Source: a virus. From it: 58,541 nucleotides of DNA. The notes under the pieces are model-generated. The model was not told where the DNA came from. It made no database searches and saw only the letters and a program-made list of their open reading frames with translations. The first letter of the stretch is position 1. The number at the start of each line of letters is the position of its first letter. Location of the stretch: positions 1-58,541 of the IMG/VR virus record IMGVR_UViG_3300044715_001863; one strand, written 5' to 3'. Made by a program: the position numbers and the translations under genes. Positions 54,179 through 58,541 of the stretch are shown one piece after another.

Positions 54179-54793
54179 TTAAGGTTTCCCCATTTTTTTC
54201 TTGATCTTAGCTCTTGCTCTTCTTATTCTCGTAGCTATGGATCTTTTCTTGATACCATATTTGATCGCTATGTCCTTGTATTTCATACCATTTATCTCTC
54301 GGTCTACCATAATGTCTCGGTAGAGTTCAGGTAATGTTCTTATTTCGTCTATGACCGCCTCATATACGGCATCAACAGTGTTCTCTTCATTGAAAAAAGC
54401 ATAATCAATTGAATTTTCTAGAACATAATGCTCGCCCATGATTGAATCATGCTTAATTGAATGAAAATCCAATTCCTTTTCATTCTGTGAAACGTATTTG
54501 TTCCTAGATTTAATTAGCAATAAGCTCTCATTACGTGCAATATTATAACACCACGTAGAGAAATTACCTCTCTCATCGTCATATTGATCTATTTTAGTCC
54601 AGATCTTGGTCATTGTGTTAATGAAAGCATCCTCCGCTAATTCCCTGTCTTTTAGAATAACGTAGCAGTGATTCAATACACCGGGTCTCAATCTCTCAAA
54701 AAGTTCTTTGAATGATTTCTCGTTCTTCTCGAATAGGAAATTCCCTGCAAGTTTTTGGATGTTTTTCTCAACCTTCTCTTTCTGTTCTATCAT
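54179..54793 (-). CDS. ECF-like sigma-70 family sigma factor
   Basis: A 204-residue sigma factor with region 2 at about residues 25-95 (ERLRPGVLNHCYVILKDREL, DAFINTMTKIWTKIDQYDD, STWCYNIARNE) and region 4 at about 145-200 (TLPELYRDIMVDREINGMKY, then the helix-turn-helix IAIKYGIKKRSIATRIRRAR). It has the layout and size of extracytoplasmic-function sigma factors, which direct RNA polymerase to a small promoter set. The recognition sequence is not known. The gp55-like gene is a separate, much smaller sigma, so the phage has at least two. Confidence 0.9.
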   Translation of the reverse strand: MIEQKEKVEKNIQKLAGNFLFEKNEKSFKELFERLRPGVLNHCYVILKDRELAEDAFINTMTKIWTKIDQYDDERGNFSTWCYNIARNESLLLIKSRNKYVSQNEKELDFHSIKHDSIMGEHYVLENSIDYAFFNEENTVDAVYEAVIDEIRTLPELYRDIMVDREINGMKYKDIAIKYGIKKRSIATRIRRARAKIKKKMGKP

Positions 54794-54813: not shown

Positions 54814-55362
54814 TTATAATTTCATTAATTCAATCCCGCCTCTTAAAAGAAAGGACAACGAATCATGCTTCCTATATAGCTCGGTAAAAACTACTCTCTT
54901 TATAGCGGATTGAATGATTAGTTTTGAGCATTCGAAGCAAGGGGAAAGAGTTACGTAAATCGTAGAGCCATCGGAGCTCTGAGTGCTCTTAGCTAACTTT
55001 GTTATAGCGTTTGCCTCCGCATGCAAAACCCAGGATAGCGTATCACCTTTCTCATCCTCACATACATTAGGAAATCCCGTTGGTGATCCGTTATACCCAT
55101 CCGATATAATAGACTTATTTTTAACCATTAAACATCCAACCTGTGCTCTTTTACAATGGGAATTCTTTCCCCAGGATTCAGCCATCTCGAGATACACGGA
55201 ATCCATTCTCTCCTCTTTTTCGTTTAAATATAAGTTATCGCCAGTTAAAAGTAAATACGTTGAATCTGACTGTGGTATAACTCTCCAGGAGATGTTTTTT
55301 TCTATAAATTCTTCATTTATGAAAGATAGATCTTTAAAGAGTATCTTTTCTGACATAGGCAT
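54814..55362 (-). CDS. cd: dCMP deaminase (deoxycytidylate deaminase)
   Basis: A 182-residue deaminase. Zinc site motifs HAEANA (114-119, catalytic Glu) and PCFEC (141-145), with CKRAQVGCLMVKNKSIISDGYNG ahead, are the standard dCMP deaminase layout (T4 cd, 193 aa). It makes dUMP for thymidylate synthesis. The first 50 residues look like an extra N-terminal domain (SWRVIPQSDSTYLLLTGDN). A second ATG two codons in is possible. It precedes the sigma gene by 20 bases. The leader has TACATTTG, fitting the Bacteroidota -7 box, but no clear -33 box. Confidence 0.9.
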   Translation of the reverse strand: MPMSEKILFKDLSFINEEFIEKNISWRVIPQSDSTYLLLTGDNLYLNEKEERMDSVYLEMAESWGKNSHCKRAQVGCLMVKNKSIISDGYNGSPTGFPNVCEDEKGDTLSWVLHAEANAITKLAKSTQSSDGSTIYVTLSPCFECSKLIIQSAIKRVVFTELYRKHDSLSFLLRGGIELMKL

Positions 55363-55422: not shown

Positions 55423-56880
55423 TTAAATTCTTCTAGAATCTGGTCTAAAAGGATCAGGTGAACTAATATTTAGTGGTCCAGCTAGTGTATTTGCTATCTT
55501 ACTAAGAAGGCTTTTAATGTCTTTAGCATCCTCATTAGACAGAGATGCACCAGAGGAAGAACTAGAAGCTCCACTAGACGCGGGCTCAGCTGTCCCTGAT
55601 TTGCTAGCTGTCTCAGTAGTTTCTGATTTTGAGCTAGCCTCCGGGTTTGCTGATTTGCTCTTCTCCGGGGCAGGGGCTGCGGTTGGAGCCGGCTTGGGCT
55701 CGGGTGGTGGCGCTGGCTTAGGCGGTGGATTTAATTCAGGCTTCTCGTTTACTGCTTTGCTTTTGGTATCTTCCTTATCTTCATTTTCCTTGGGTGATTT
55801 TTTACCCAAATCCTGAACTTTACTTACAGCTTTCTGTTTAGCAGTGCCGATTAACTTTTCAGTTTTATCCCCTGATATACCAAATTTGGATCCCAAGTTA
55901 ACAGCTTTATCTGTTAGTCCTGATTTTTTTTCCAGAATAGAAAGACCCATACCTATAGCACTACTCTTTGCGTTTTCCTTACGCTCGGTTGACTTTCCTT
56001 TAGAAAATAGACCTTCTCCAGTCCCCTCTTTTTCTTTTTTTTCTTTTTTATTTTTCTTTTTTGAGGTCTTCTCTGTGCTTTCCTCTTTTGAATTATCCTT
56101 TTCCTTTCCCTCTCTTTCCTCTTTAGAATTAGGCTTTTCCTTCTCCGATAATGCTGGTTCCGCAGTTTTATTAAGGGAAGAGCCAGGTCCAGAATTGTAG
56201 CTACTTATATAAGAATCTAGATCATCCTGTAGGCTTTTAGGGTATTCGGTATAGAATTCATAGTCTTCTGCTAATAATCTTTCTCTCTCCGCTTTTATTT
56301 CCTCTGCACTCGGGCCCGCTGATTTAGCAATTTTTTCATCCATGCTTCCCTCTTTGCTTTCAGGTTTAGCATTTTTTATCTTATCCTGTAATTTTTCAAG
56401 AGCAACTACAGCTTCTGCACTTTTACCACCATCAGAAACATCCATAGCAGCATCCTCAGCTATTTGCTTTTCGAGTTGTTTTTTTATAAAACCAATATCG
56501 TAATCACCCGTTGGCGTAACTACAACATTATTAGATTTGTCATAGTTTAAAATCTTATCATCAAGATCACCTTTGAGTTGCGAAACGTTTTTTAATCCCT
56601 CTATTAAATCTGAAACATCTAAAGGTATTATTGAGGATCCGGTAGGAAGCGAAACCACTTCTGGTCCATTCTCACCAACTAAATAGTTTCCATCATCCTT
56701 AGTTTTACCGCCTCTTCTAAAGCTACCCTTTACGTTACCCAGTGATCTCTCTATAACATCACCCTGTTTCTTAATATCGTCCTTGATAGACGATATGTTC
56801 ATTTTTTTCAATTCACCAACGAGACCCTCTAAACTTCTCGATAGGTCAATGAACTGTTTTTCACTTTCGGTAGATGACAT
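55423..56880 (-). CDS. Tape-measure-like tail protein, 485 aa
   Basis: The N-terminus is helical (residues 1-55). Residues 66-86 (YLVGENGPEVVSLPTGSSII) match the GErGPElv.LP.Gs.ViP stretch found near the end of many tape measure proteins. The rest is charged, low-complexity sequence (Lys/Glu/Ser at 240-310, Pro/Ala at 370-420) with short helices between. T4 gp29 is 590 aa. Its unusual shortness and disordered C-terminal half make a spacer, chaperone or truncated tape measure possible. An AATATATAGA motif is about 22 bases upstream. Confidence 0.5.
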   Translation of the reverse strand: MSSTESEKQFIDLSRSLEGLVGELKKMNISSIKDDIKKQGDVIERSLGNVKGSFRRGGKTKDDGNYLVGENGPEVVSLPTGSSIIPLDVSDLIEGLKNVSQLKGDLDDKILNYDKSNNVVVTPTGDYDIGFIKKQLEKQIAEDAAMDVSDGGKSAEAVVALEKLQDKIKNAKPESKEGSMDEKIAKSAGPSAEEIKAERERLLAEDYEFYTEYPKSLQDDLDSYISSYNSGPGSSLNKTAEPALSEKEKPNSKEEREGKEKDNSKEESTEKTSKKKNKKEKKEKEGTGEGLFSKGKSTERKENAKSSAIGMGLSILEKKSGLTDKAVNLGSKFGISGDKTEKLIGTAKQKAVSKVQDLGKKSPKENEDKEDTKSKAVNEKPELNPPPKPAPPPEPKPAPTAAPAPEKSKSANPEASSKSETTETASKSGTAEPASSGASSSSSGASLSNEDAKDIKSLLSKIANTLAGPLNISSPDPFRPDSRRI

Positions 56881-56902
56881 TTATGAAATAATTCTTTATT
56901 TC

Positions 56903-56909
56903 TATATAT
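56903..56909 (-). promoter_or_regulatory. Candidate late-type promoter (AATATATAG)
   Basis: The minus strand reads AAAATATATAGAAATAAAG, about 22 bases before the tape-measure-like gene; one base off the GATATATAG form. Confidence 0.35.
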
Positions 56910-56922
56910 TTTAGTTGCAATT

Positions 56923-57183
56923 TTACTTCCTAAAAGAGAAAACTGTTTTCTTTCCTGAATCTGCAAGTACTTCTTGATTATCGACCTCGATAGCGAGATT
57001 GAGCTTATCTATCCACATCTGGTATTCGTAATAGGGTATTCCCTCTACCCATTCAGGATCGAGGCCGTGCTCCTTCCATAGTCTAAACTTCAGATCAAAG
57101 AAGTTCTCCAATGATATCTGAAATAACGAAAAGTGATCTAAGCCCTTTGGGAAAGGTAATGTCGGCGGTGACCTCCCTTCCAC
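56923..57183 (-). CDS. Overlapping tail-assembly ORF (frameshift or GTG/TTG start)
   Basis: 86 codons if a GTG start is used, 61 nt of which lie before the stop of the gp26-like gene in another frame; no ATG precedes residue 57. The region from FFDLKFRLWKEHG to PYYEYQMWIDKLNLAIEVDN resembles the helical ends of tail-assembly/hub-assembly proteins. Either it begins at GTG/TTG, or it is reached from the gp26-like frame by a +1 shift in the shared 89 bases. Both frames would end a hub-assembly polypeptide. Confidence 0.5.
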   Translation of the reverse strand: MEGRSPPTLPFPKGLDHFSLFQISLENFFDLKFRLWKEHGLDPEWVEGIPYYEYQMWIDKLNLAIEVDNQEVLADSGKKTVFSFRK

Positions 57184-58213
57184 CGCACTTAGGGCAATTT
57201 ACCAATGCCTTGGACTTTGTACCTATTTTTATTTTTTCAGATAATTCAAACAGTAAGCTGAATTCCTCTTTTGACCAGGAATCACTGTCTTTCAATCTTG
57301 CCTGGAATGACCCTTCAGTTAGAGTTCTCCAATCCTCAAATATGAAAGGGGATATCTGTACAAAAGCATCATCTATTTCAACTCCCCTCTTGGCAAGGGA
57401 TATTATAAAATCTGATATTCTTTTAGTAACTCCTATACTAGGAACAAACATCTTAATATTTTTATCCAGCTTCTTTATATCAAAAGAAAAACATCTTCTT
57501 TCGCTGTCATAATATTCCAGTATTTTATCTTCAATTTCATACATTGACAAAACACCGGTTCTAAGCTCAAATCCGTCCCTTACCGGGCATTCCTTAAATT
57601 CACAGGGATTATTAGGGATCAATATTACACTATTCTCACCTCTAGTAAAAGTTAGATCTCTTATTGCTAATGTTATGAAAAATCTATCCTCGGATTTTAG
57701 GTCTTGATAAGAAACTATACCCTGTGTCGGAAAATCCATTCTCATACACTTATCTAGGATATAGCCTAATTTTTCCTCTATGTCTATTCTATCCTCGTCG
57801 TCTATCGTTGAGAAATGTCTGATTTCCTTTACCTCCGCAGCTCTAATAGCTATTCTAGTGCCATCTGGGTAGTACATACCCTTTGATGGAAGTATGCCCA
57901 TTGGTATATTCTTCCAGCCTAACTCACCAGGCTGTTTTTGAGCACTATTATGGGGCTGAGTAGATTGAGCTTCCTGCTGGGGATAAGCGGGTTTTCTTTC
58001 GATCCTGCCTAACGAATTAGGAGGGTTCTGGGCAGGCTGCTCCTCAATAGGTGATTTAGGGAGAGCTGGTTCCTGCGAGGCGTAAGCATTCTCGTTTAGT
58101 GTAACCGGATTCTCGGTATTTGTTACAGTTACTTCATCTTTAGGATCGTCATAGACGAATCCACTAGCTGCTTCTTTATTTCTGAGGATTTCCTCGGGCG
58201 ATAAATTCTTCAT
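57095..58213 (-). CDS. gp26: Baseplate hub assembly protein, gp26-like
   Basis: A 372-residue protein. The N-terminal 95 residues are Pro/Gln/Asn-rich and disordered. The T4-baseplate-type core starts about residue 100 (PMGILPSKGMYYPDGTRIAI) and includes EIRHFSTIDDEDRIDIEEKL and QDLKSEDRFFITLAIRDLTF. A CEFKEC ... CPKCGG pattern could bind zinc. T4 gp26 is 208 aa, shorter because it lacks the N-terminal tail. The 3' end overlaps a second frame by 89 bases. Confidence 0.7.
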   Translation of the reverse strand: MKNLSPEEILRNKEAASGFVYDDPKDEVTVTNTENPVTLNENAYASQEPALPKSPIEEQPAQNPPNSLGRIERKPAYPQQEAQSTQPHNSAQKQPGELGWKNIPMGILPSKGMYYPDGTRIAIRAAEVKEIRHFSTIDDEDRIDIEEKLGYILDKCMRMDFPTQGIVSYQDLKSEDRFFITLAIRDLTFTRGENSVILIPNNPCEFKECPVRDGFELRTGVLSMYEIEDKILEYYDSERRCFSFDIKKLDKNIKMFVPSIGVTKRISDFIISLAKRGVEIDDAFVQISPFIFEDWRTLTEGSFQARLKDSDSWSKEEFSLLFELSEKIKIGTKSKALVNCPKCGGREVTADITFPKGLRSLFVISDIIGELL

Positions 58214-58257
58214 AATATTAAGGTCTTATGTTATAAATTATATAACGGTCCACAAAA

Positions 58258-58302: not shown

Positions 58303-58541
58303 TTATAAGAAAAGATCTTCCCAGTAATCACATTTCCATTGAATACTGATACTATAGATACTAGCTCCCTGATCATAATCTAGCTCCAAAGGTGTTATTG
58401 GGGCACTTATAAAGCAAACCGGTATTCTTATTCTTCTAAAAACATCACCCTGCTTATTGAATATGGATATAACCATAGATCCAACATAATCACGCTTAAG
58501 TCCCATAGCACCAGTCAATGGGTTATAGATAAGATCCGACC
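58303..58541 (-). CDS. gp19: Tail tube protein gp19-like, C-terminal part only
   Basis: The frame is open at the right edge; 78 residues are visible (beginning SDLIYNPLTGAMGLKRDYVG and ending WEDLFL). The pattern of IYNPLTG, RIRIPVCFISAP and ASIYSISIQWKCDYWED matches the C-terminus of T4 gp19-type tail tube proteins, whose length is about 163 aa. No start can be chosen. The terminator after it suggests strong expression. The sheath gene is expected to the right, outside the window. Confidence 0.7.
   Translation of the reverse strand, partial: SDLIYNPLTGAMGLKRDYVGSMVISIFNKQGDVFRRIRIPVCFISAPITPLELDYDQGASIYSISIQWKCDYWEDLFL

Follow-up and report, generated by a model that had tools for sequence, protein, structure and literature searches.

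A conserved signal near the end of a phage tail gene very probably adds a second domain to its protein by +1 frameshifting

Two overlapping reading frames at the end of a gp26-like gene

The window, by which we mean the whole of the virus record that was analyzed (58,541 bases), carries on its minus strand a gp26-like gene of 372 amino acids (57095..58213, hereafter G), the product of which would be made by normal termination at a TGA codon (57095..57097) whose position is kept in most relatives. The open reading frame list adds a small frame of 86 amino acids with a GTG start (56923..57183, minus strand), and its coordinates agree with the preliminary description that the 86-codon frame overlaps the last 89 bases of G (57095-57183) in the +1 register. 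As also described there, no ATG lies near the beginning of this frame, the candidates being GTG at 57183 and a TTG located 14 nt before the 0-frame stop; the first ATG of the +1 frame is found 79 nt beyond that stop. The frame itself is real, but the extent first given to it is not that of the functional +1 domain, which runs from about 57150 to 56923 rather than over the whole open reading frame. Based on sequence comparison and a structural model, this domain, T (56923..57150, minus strand), would be fused to G after a slip to give a GT protein of 429 amino acids. The segment from 57098 to 57148 (minus strand), which contains CTTTTC at 57128-57133, appears from alignments, change counts and codon usage to encode the end of G in frame 0 and the start of T in frame +1.

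Similar strings had been noticed in the two frames of the overlap, and they can be read as FPKGLRSLF in frame 0 and FPKGLDHFSLF in frame +1. FPKGL is common to both because each codon in TTT CCC AAA GGG CTT A and its +1 neighbor specify the same residue. The helical character expected of the tail was borne out with modest confidence (mean pLDDT 67, pTM 0.42) by the model of T, which has predicted helices at residues 25-38, 43-48 and 51-75.

Protein family and neighboring genes

The G protein matches phrog_36717 (E=1.8e-21) and, weakly, phrog_150, annotated as "baseplate hub" (E=0.027), a family that the counterpart in a 735-kb phage (LR756501, locus L109) matches at E=5.3e-5; neither frame matched Pfam above cut-offs. 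In a model of G with a pTM of 0.68, residues 101-360 form a block with pLDDT of 78-95. Searching this fold against BFVD returned first members of the same family (pT24, PTm1 and others), followed by a baseplate hub subunit of Bacillus phage SP-15 (E=2.1e-10) and proteins labeled "baseplate hub assembly protein, bacteriophage T4-like" (E=4.4e-7 and 8.8e-7). Matches of G to tail assembly chaperone (TAC) folds were weak (E=0.35, prob 0.84 in BFVD; HK97 2ob9, E=4.7), and a PDB fold search of G gave nothing at E<=0.001.

Both T4 gp26 and T4 gp51 belong to phrog_150, a profile of 282 positions along which gp26 reaches position 235 and gp51 position 280. When 13 joined GT sequences were aligned with six gp51 sequences by HHalign, nearly the whole of gp51 was covered (P=4.6e-4, at a probability of only 33%), and the alignment of GT with gp26 spanned 92 columns (P=1.4e-4, probability only 53%); gp51 and gp26 themselves align at P=1e-18. 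From the end positions and these alignments, gp51 therefore looks like GT and gp26 like G. Homology in sequence and predicted fold places the protein near T4 gp26/gp51. A gp26/gp51-like tail assembly chaperone describes it better than the label of structural hub gene previously attached to it; the chaperone role itself, including any binding of the tape measure or tail tube, is inferred.

Upstream of G lies the 3' part of a tail tube protein (58303..58539, minus strand), which matches phrog_32623, of unknown function (E=9.3e-8), and the tail tube family phrog_45 (E=1.2e-4), and in relatives a sheath gene is found further upstream of the tail tube. Downstream is a lysine- and serine-rich gene of 485 amino acids (55423..56880, minus strand) without a PHROG or Pfam match at E<=1. 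We infer that it may encode the tape measure protein, and it contains LVGENGPEVVSLPTGSSIIP, which we take to resemble a tape measure protein motif. It is followed on the same strand by genes for a dCMP deaminase (54814-55362, phrog_174, E=3.3e-51) and a sigma-factor-like protein (54179-54793, phrog_1740, E=2.4e-22).

Occurrence of the arrangement in related phages

A blastn search of the DNA against phages gave no match. By tblastn, the small frame matched PAU, PTm1, PTm5 and one unannotated 462-kb phage, and the big gene has relatives in, among others, 15 Lak megaphage records, phages of 634-735 kb, MA9V-1/2, MaF61 and pT24; a query with the T sequence of MA9V found no relatives. All ten loci inspected from these (L105-L114) have the overlapping +1 frame, in Lak-B5 only when TAG is read as an amino acid. 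The T frame of Lak-B5 (L106:4758-5189) carries an in-frame TAG, which would be readable as an amino acid as under code 15. A weak match in Vibrio phage GR11A (L115, E=0.02) has an overlapping +1 frame with its own ATG that does not read as T-like, and it was excluded from all counts.

Further relatives were fetched from IMG/VR (95 for the small frame, of which 80 were kept, 19 for the big gene, 69 for a second clade and four for L002). Sequences were compared in three groups: clade A, with 100 loci that gave 54 distinct sequences, clade B (42 distinct from 67 loci) and clade C (25 distinct). Clades A and B were picked by the motif CTTTTC/ATTTTC, and the search pattern for clade C fixed TTT CCC. 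Among the fetched loci, 161 distinct sites, those of PAU and pT24 included, show the arrangement according to a script that required GAGG upstream, TTTC, a 0-frame stop 30-110 nt further on and a reading that looks like T. These sites are related by descent and are not independent events. Outside this set lie Lak, PTm, MA9V, MaF61, L109 and L110, and the Lak megaphages, PTm1/5, MA9V and MaF61 have the arrangement as well. The register was +1, and not -1, in the relatives that were aligned or read. In L109 (L109:4881-5228) an insertion follows the slip in the T frame, and the FSVF motif comes later, past the 0-frame stop.

In order to look for the arrangement without protein information, the pattern GGAGGTC-N15-TTTCCC-N3-GG (15 fixed bases) was scanned over viral contigs, some of which were already among the loci fetched earlier. 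It occurs in at least 120 stretches, 119 of which were examined. The full architecture, for which the 0 frame had to be open over 100 codons or more and to stop 20-110 nt further on, and the +1 frame had to run for 55 codons or more, was present in 108/119 among the matches listed, and 117/119 among the matches listed had a T-like reading by eye, counting L203, which has an insertion in the tail. Nine of the other 11 among the matches listed read as T, mostly shortened; L200 and L248 do not.

The coding frame switches near the end of G

The frame switch was measured as Fitch parsimony changes at 0-frame codon positions 1/2/3. In clade A the counts are 214/170/472 upstream, 35/6/9 over the 33 nt from CTTTTC to the stop, and 466/171/90 past the stop. 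Clade B gives 62/54/225 upstream, 6/2/7 in the overlap, without a +1 bias, and 203/54/11 past the stop, and clade C gives 30/11/81 upstream, 21/1/27 from the slip to the stop, with third positions free to change, and 98/42/11 past the stop. Judged by these counts, the periodicity switches clearly from the 0 frame to the +1 frame in clades A, B and C, and as the +1 frame has its own codon periodicity after the slip region in all three, the observation goes beyond chance. The overlap leans toward +1 in clade A only, which is as expected if both frames are read. The comparison thus establishes coding in two frames, the need for a change of frame and the region in which it takes place. In L066, L069 and L076 the 0-frame stop is shifted two codons downstream (CTT GGA TCT TAA), and the +1 frame is the same.

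A conserved UUU CCC is the most likely slip site

When relatives were compared for a conserved shift site, UUU CCC (57149..57154, minus strand) emerged as the most likely slip. It is the sole in-frame TTTCCC in the 48 open reading frames of the window, and both of its codons are fixed beyond codon bias, with TTT present in 53/53 clade A and 40/40 clade B sequences (background 70% and 61%) and CCC in 52/53 and 40/40 (background 14% and 1%). In addition, GGG occurs after the slip in 50/53 clade A sequences (background 12%). Stop codons of the +1 frame starting 5 nt before TTT CCC are seen in 13/53 clade A and 2/40 clade B sequences, and between TTT CCC and the 0-frame stop none was found in the same 53 and 40. 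Over the whole G gene, wobble changes reach minima in the 3' region at the hairpin described below, the slip and the overlap. Sites in which UUU is followed by a pyrimidine are known to slip in the +1 direction. At the RF2 site, CUU is the most slippery codon and CCC and UUU come next, according to the part of that report available to us (PMC10885494).

The second codon is not universal, and the place is occupied by UUU CAA in Lak and L002, UUU CGA in MaF61 and UUU CGC in L188; MA9V has UUU CUA further downstream, L110 has UAC CCC A, and in PTm1/5 UUU C is missing at the aligned place. A -2 shift at UUU CCC was rejected, as cognate re-pairing is absent. The slip, its direction (+1 and not -2) and the exact codon are inferences from these patterns.

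The alternative that survives best, although we regard it as improbable, places the slip 21 nt later at CUU UUC (57128-57133), by a +1 movement from CUU to UUU or a -2 movement from UUC to UUU. It was our first reading, since dropped on codon usage, +1 stop counts and clade C. CTTTTC/ATTTTC is invariant in clades A and B, both of which were picked by that motif, NTTTTC lies at +21 or +24 in 146/161 sites, conservation of FSLFQ in the +1 frame is strongest from CTTTTC on, and in clade C third positions vary between the UUU CCC and CUU UUC sites. Against these points, the +1 frame is already open and codon-biased upstream of CUU UUC: at the codon 9 nt before CTTTTC, 19.4 +1 stops are expected in clade A from codon usage and none is observed, and the bias toward GGG falls in the same stretch. 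Most of clade C has CTG or CTC before TTC/TTT at the later site (20/25, with backgrounds of 2% and 1%, and 59% for TTA), Lak has ATA TTC there and pT24 ATT GTC, and a slip at this place would leave the fixed TTT CCC unexplained. On sequence evidence these observations point to UUU CCC over CUU UUC, though the +1 residues just after the slip vary.

A covarying hairpin with GGAGG in its loop precedes the proposed slip site

Upstream of this site the minus strand can form an RNA hairpin, a feature absent from the preliminary description (57165..57186; stem GCGGUGG/UCACCGC, 8-nt loop AAGGGAGG) whose base ends 10 nt before UUU in the window and whose loop holds GGAGG (57172..57176), the complement of the anti-Shine-Dalgarno (anti-SD) sequence. 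GGAGG is conserved in clades A and B, being intact in 45/53 and 38/40 sequences (missing in 8/53 of clade A), and its GAG codon is found in 53/53 and 40/40 (background 34% and 18%). The distance from the end of GGAGG to UUU is 17 nt.

The pairing was tested within each clade against shuffles. For clade A, 33 of 45 distinct segments were used, omitting L022, L025, L097 and L185-L187, in which the 5' arm is shifted by three bases, and others that are near-identical. In these 33 sequences 98.7% of 231 cells are paired, and two pairs are changed on both sides (5 cells); the observed percentage of paired cells, number of double-change cells and covariation score are each reached by 0/500 shuffles, the number of doubly changed pairs by 26/500 and that of pair types by 25/500. 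RNAalifold on 39 clade A rows recovers this hairpin. With 23 of 32 clade B segments, 81.4% of 161 cells are paired in one register, a subgroup having the hairpin one base off, and three pairs are changed on both sides. Here 0/500 shuffles reach the percentage, cells or score, 28/500 the pairs and 275/500 the pair types. RNAalifold prefers another fold in clade B, in which the GGAGG loop pairs with UUUCC; it was rejected because 0/15 pairs are changed on both sides, and it is also disfavored by the keeping of GGAGG where UUUCCC has become UUUCAA or UUUCGC (L002, Lak-C1, L188).

Across lineages the stem takes the forms GCGGUG/CACCGC, GCAGUG/CACUGC, GCGGAG/CUCCGC, GUGCGG/CCGCAC, GCUGUG/CACAGC and GGGGAUA/UAUCCCC, and UUU follows the stem at a distance of 9-13 nt in most of them (3 in Lak, 4 in MA9V-2 and 6 in L188). 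A stem of at least 5 bp is present in 147 of 150 distinct pattern-matched cassettes, and 92 of the 150 pass a test against synonymous recodings. When 5' arms were swapped among 22 divergent representatives, thinned from the 150 by T identity, the mean stem score fell from 16.2 in the native pairs to 13.6 (sd 0.58), with 0/1000 swaps reaching the native value. Taken lineage by lineage, the hairpin at its proper place outscores 95% of synonymous recodings in 11/22, PTm1 passes only via a stem elsewhere, and in 10/22, including PAU, L002, L107, pT24, MaF61, MA9V-2 and Lak-C1, the stem is no better than synonymous recodings at 5%. The sequences behind all of these statistics are related and not independent. 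No Rfam family matched window positions 56900-58250 at E<=1. By these comparisons, the hairpin is a covarying structure; how it and GGAGG act is inferred.

Clade B has an invariant ATG in the 0 frame 11 nt after GGAGG (40/40, e.g. L108:4736-4738), at a place occupied by ATT/ATA/ATC in clade A. It cannot be excluded that in clade B translation also begins at this ATG and yields a short 0-frame peptide.

Alternative explanations for the second frame

The preliminary description had allowed for re-initiation beside a slip, and T might be a separate protein begun at a GTG, TTG or non-standard codon, by re-initiation or overlap. Between the last +1 stop and the 14th codon after the slip, ATG, GTG or TTG is present in the +1 frame at 142/161 sites and ATG at 94/161 (absent at 67/161), and many clade A sequences share the GTG that the window has at 57183. 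This GTG comes from GGT G in the stem of the hairpin, none of the three codons is available at 19/161 sites, and at 31/161 a +1 stop lies at most 30 nt upstream of TTT. Independent initiation therefore cannot serve all members, re-initiation is left unsupported, and a separate start would leave both the fixed TTT CCC and the hairpin unexplained, making this a very improbable account.

We give even less weight to a slip at the 0-frame stop in the manner of RF2 (CUU UGA in the window): most clade A sequences do have [CT]TT TGA at the stop, but in this clade the 33 nt before the stop already show the substitution pattern of a coding +1 frame, and relatives have TCT TAA, TTA TGA or GAA TAA there. 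A pseudogene, a sequencing error or transcriptional slippage, for none of which there is specific support, can be practically dismissed, as the register is identical in 161 distinct sequences and in complete phage genomes, constraint on both frames disfavors decay, and TTTCCC is short for polymerase slippage.

Proposed mechanism

The explanation that we consider highly probable is that G (372 amino acids) and a minor GT fusion (429 amino acids) are made from one start, GT arising by a programmed +1 slip at UUU CCC that is aided by the hairpin, and that together they form a tail assembly chaperone of the G/GT type. The longer chaperone form first suggested for this locus is strongly supported, although all of the support is comparative: no fusion peptide has been observed, and there is no reporter or ribosome-profiling evidence. 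In PAU, the tryptic peptide expected across the G-T junction is EVYHDIVFPTESNIFSLIQLPSLR, a prediction for which no peptide data exist.

Normal decoding would give G, and a slip near the 3' end of its gene would give GT, whose status as the minor product is inferred. At the moment of the slip, UUU (Phe) would occupy the P site and CCC, an uncommon codon, would stand in the A site. The tRNA for Phe would exchange its pairing with UUU for one with UUC (alternatively, the tRNA for Pro would move from CCC to CCN, yielding an identical peptide), and decoding would continue in the +1 frame. When UUU arrives in the P site, the hairpin, with its base about 10 nt upstream, may refold where the mRNA leaves the ribosome, with or without pairing to the anti-SD, and so block backward and favor forward movement. 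It is possible that 16S rRNA, through its anti-SD, binds the GGAGG of the loop; a direct pull of the prfB type is unlikely because GGAGG lies 17 nt from UUU, far beyond the 3 nt of prfB. G and GT would then act as a chaperone pair like lambda gpG/gpGT, within the T4 gp26/gp51 family.

More tentatively, these loci may represent a natural class of +1 recoding, spread in giant Bacteroidota phages, in which a covarying hairpin with a Shine-Dalgarno (SD) sequence in its loop refolds at the mRNA exit, or is caught there by the anti-SD, and pushes the ribosome forward on UUU CCC; this wider reading is conceivable, and we would not yet call it probable. GGAGG could serve in it as a private frameshift signal because Bacteroidota ribosomes scarcely use SD sequences for initiation. 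Flavobacterium johnsoniae (Bacteroidia) seldom uses SD, and 523/726 Bacteroidia genomes keep the prfB +1 frameshift, as stated in the accessible text of PMC8710568. In the window, an SD-like 4-mer (GGAG/GAGG/AGGA within -18..-4 of the start) precedes only 2/48 minus-strand open reading frames, and the sequence before the starts is rich in A/T, as hosts not using SD would lead one to expect. The phage fits SD-sparing hosts because of this scarcity and of the hosts of its named relatives, which are Prevotella, Tenacibaculum, Chryseobacterium and Flavobacterium; PAU, recorded on Sphingomonas paucimobilis, is a poor fit.

Relation to known systems

Forward shifting is a rare version of the frameshift trick used in building phage tails, and judging from its conservation, the signal described here very probably uses it to add a second domain. 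As in lambda gpG/gpGT, a short protein and a frameshift-made long form would arise at the 3' end of G in a gene that follows the tail tube gene, whereas the inferred shift here is +1 and not -1, UUU CCC is not a -1 site and the hairpin is upstream (PMC5009743, as far as its available text goes). The T4-like TAC genes 26 and 51 belong to the same protein family by phrog_150, fold and HHalign, but they are separate genes in T4, in place of one gene with an overlapping +1 tail. Some T4-like phages are described as having one short and one long gene without a frameshift (PRFect, citing Vladimirov et al. 2022, from the portion available). Frameshifts of the -1 type in TAC genes are already known, and for T4-like TACs, too, frameshifting may have precedents, because -1 poly-T signals are mentioned in their TAC-N genes in the part of PMC12846349 that we could consult, citing Vladimirov et al. 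2022.

The prfB (RF2) system shares the +1 register, an internal SD-like sequence and a pyrimidine-rich slip, but here UUU is followed by CCC and no stop, and the SD lies 17 nt off in a hairpin loop. Within the accessible sections of PMC5009743, Listeria phage PSA, discussed with A118 and A500, likewise shifts +1 at a proline CCC in structural genes, using a stop codon or a downstream pseudoknot in different genes and hosts, and haloarchaeal HSTV-2 very likely has a +1 shift in its TAC gene, as is proposed here, again with other genes and hosts. An upstream duplex favoring +1 movement is shared with an engineered hairpin that stimulates +1 shifting on 70S ribosomes; in the excerpted text of PMC6321510, that hairpin adjoins the E site and acts on CUUUGA only without RF2, whereas the present one is natural, covarying and about 10 nt from the P-site codon. 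In the literature on TAC, T4-like, Bacteroidetes and Lak frameshifts and on upstream hairpins, so far as it was covered, most subscription papers lying outside, there is no apparent description of this element, and the consulted part of the PRFect paper states that no general motif is known for forward shifts.

The 161 distinct sites provide a large natural set of +1 sites with a candidate slip and an upstream structural element, and they suggest frameshift-made chaperones in the gp26/gp51 family, in which some T4-like phages reportedly use separate genes. They also open to experiment the action of an internal SD and an upstream hairpin on ribosomes in which initiation seldom relies on SD. Finally, there is a consequence for annotation practice: in 7/7 annotated records (PAU, PTm1, PTm5, MA9V-1, MA9V-2, MaF61 and pT24), the T domain is given as a separate short gene without a function, with a start inside the domain.
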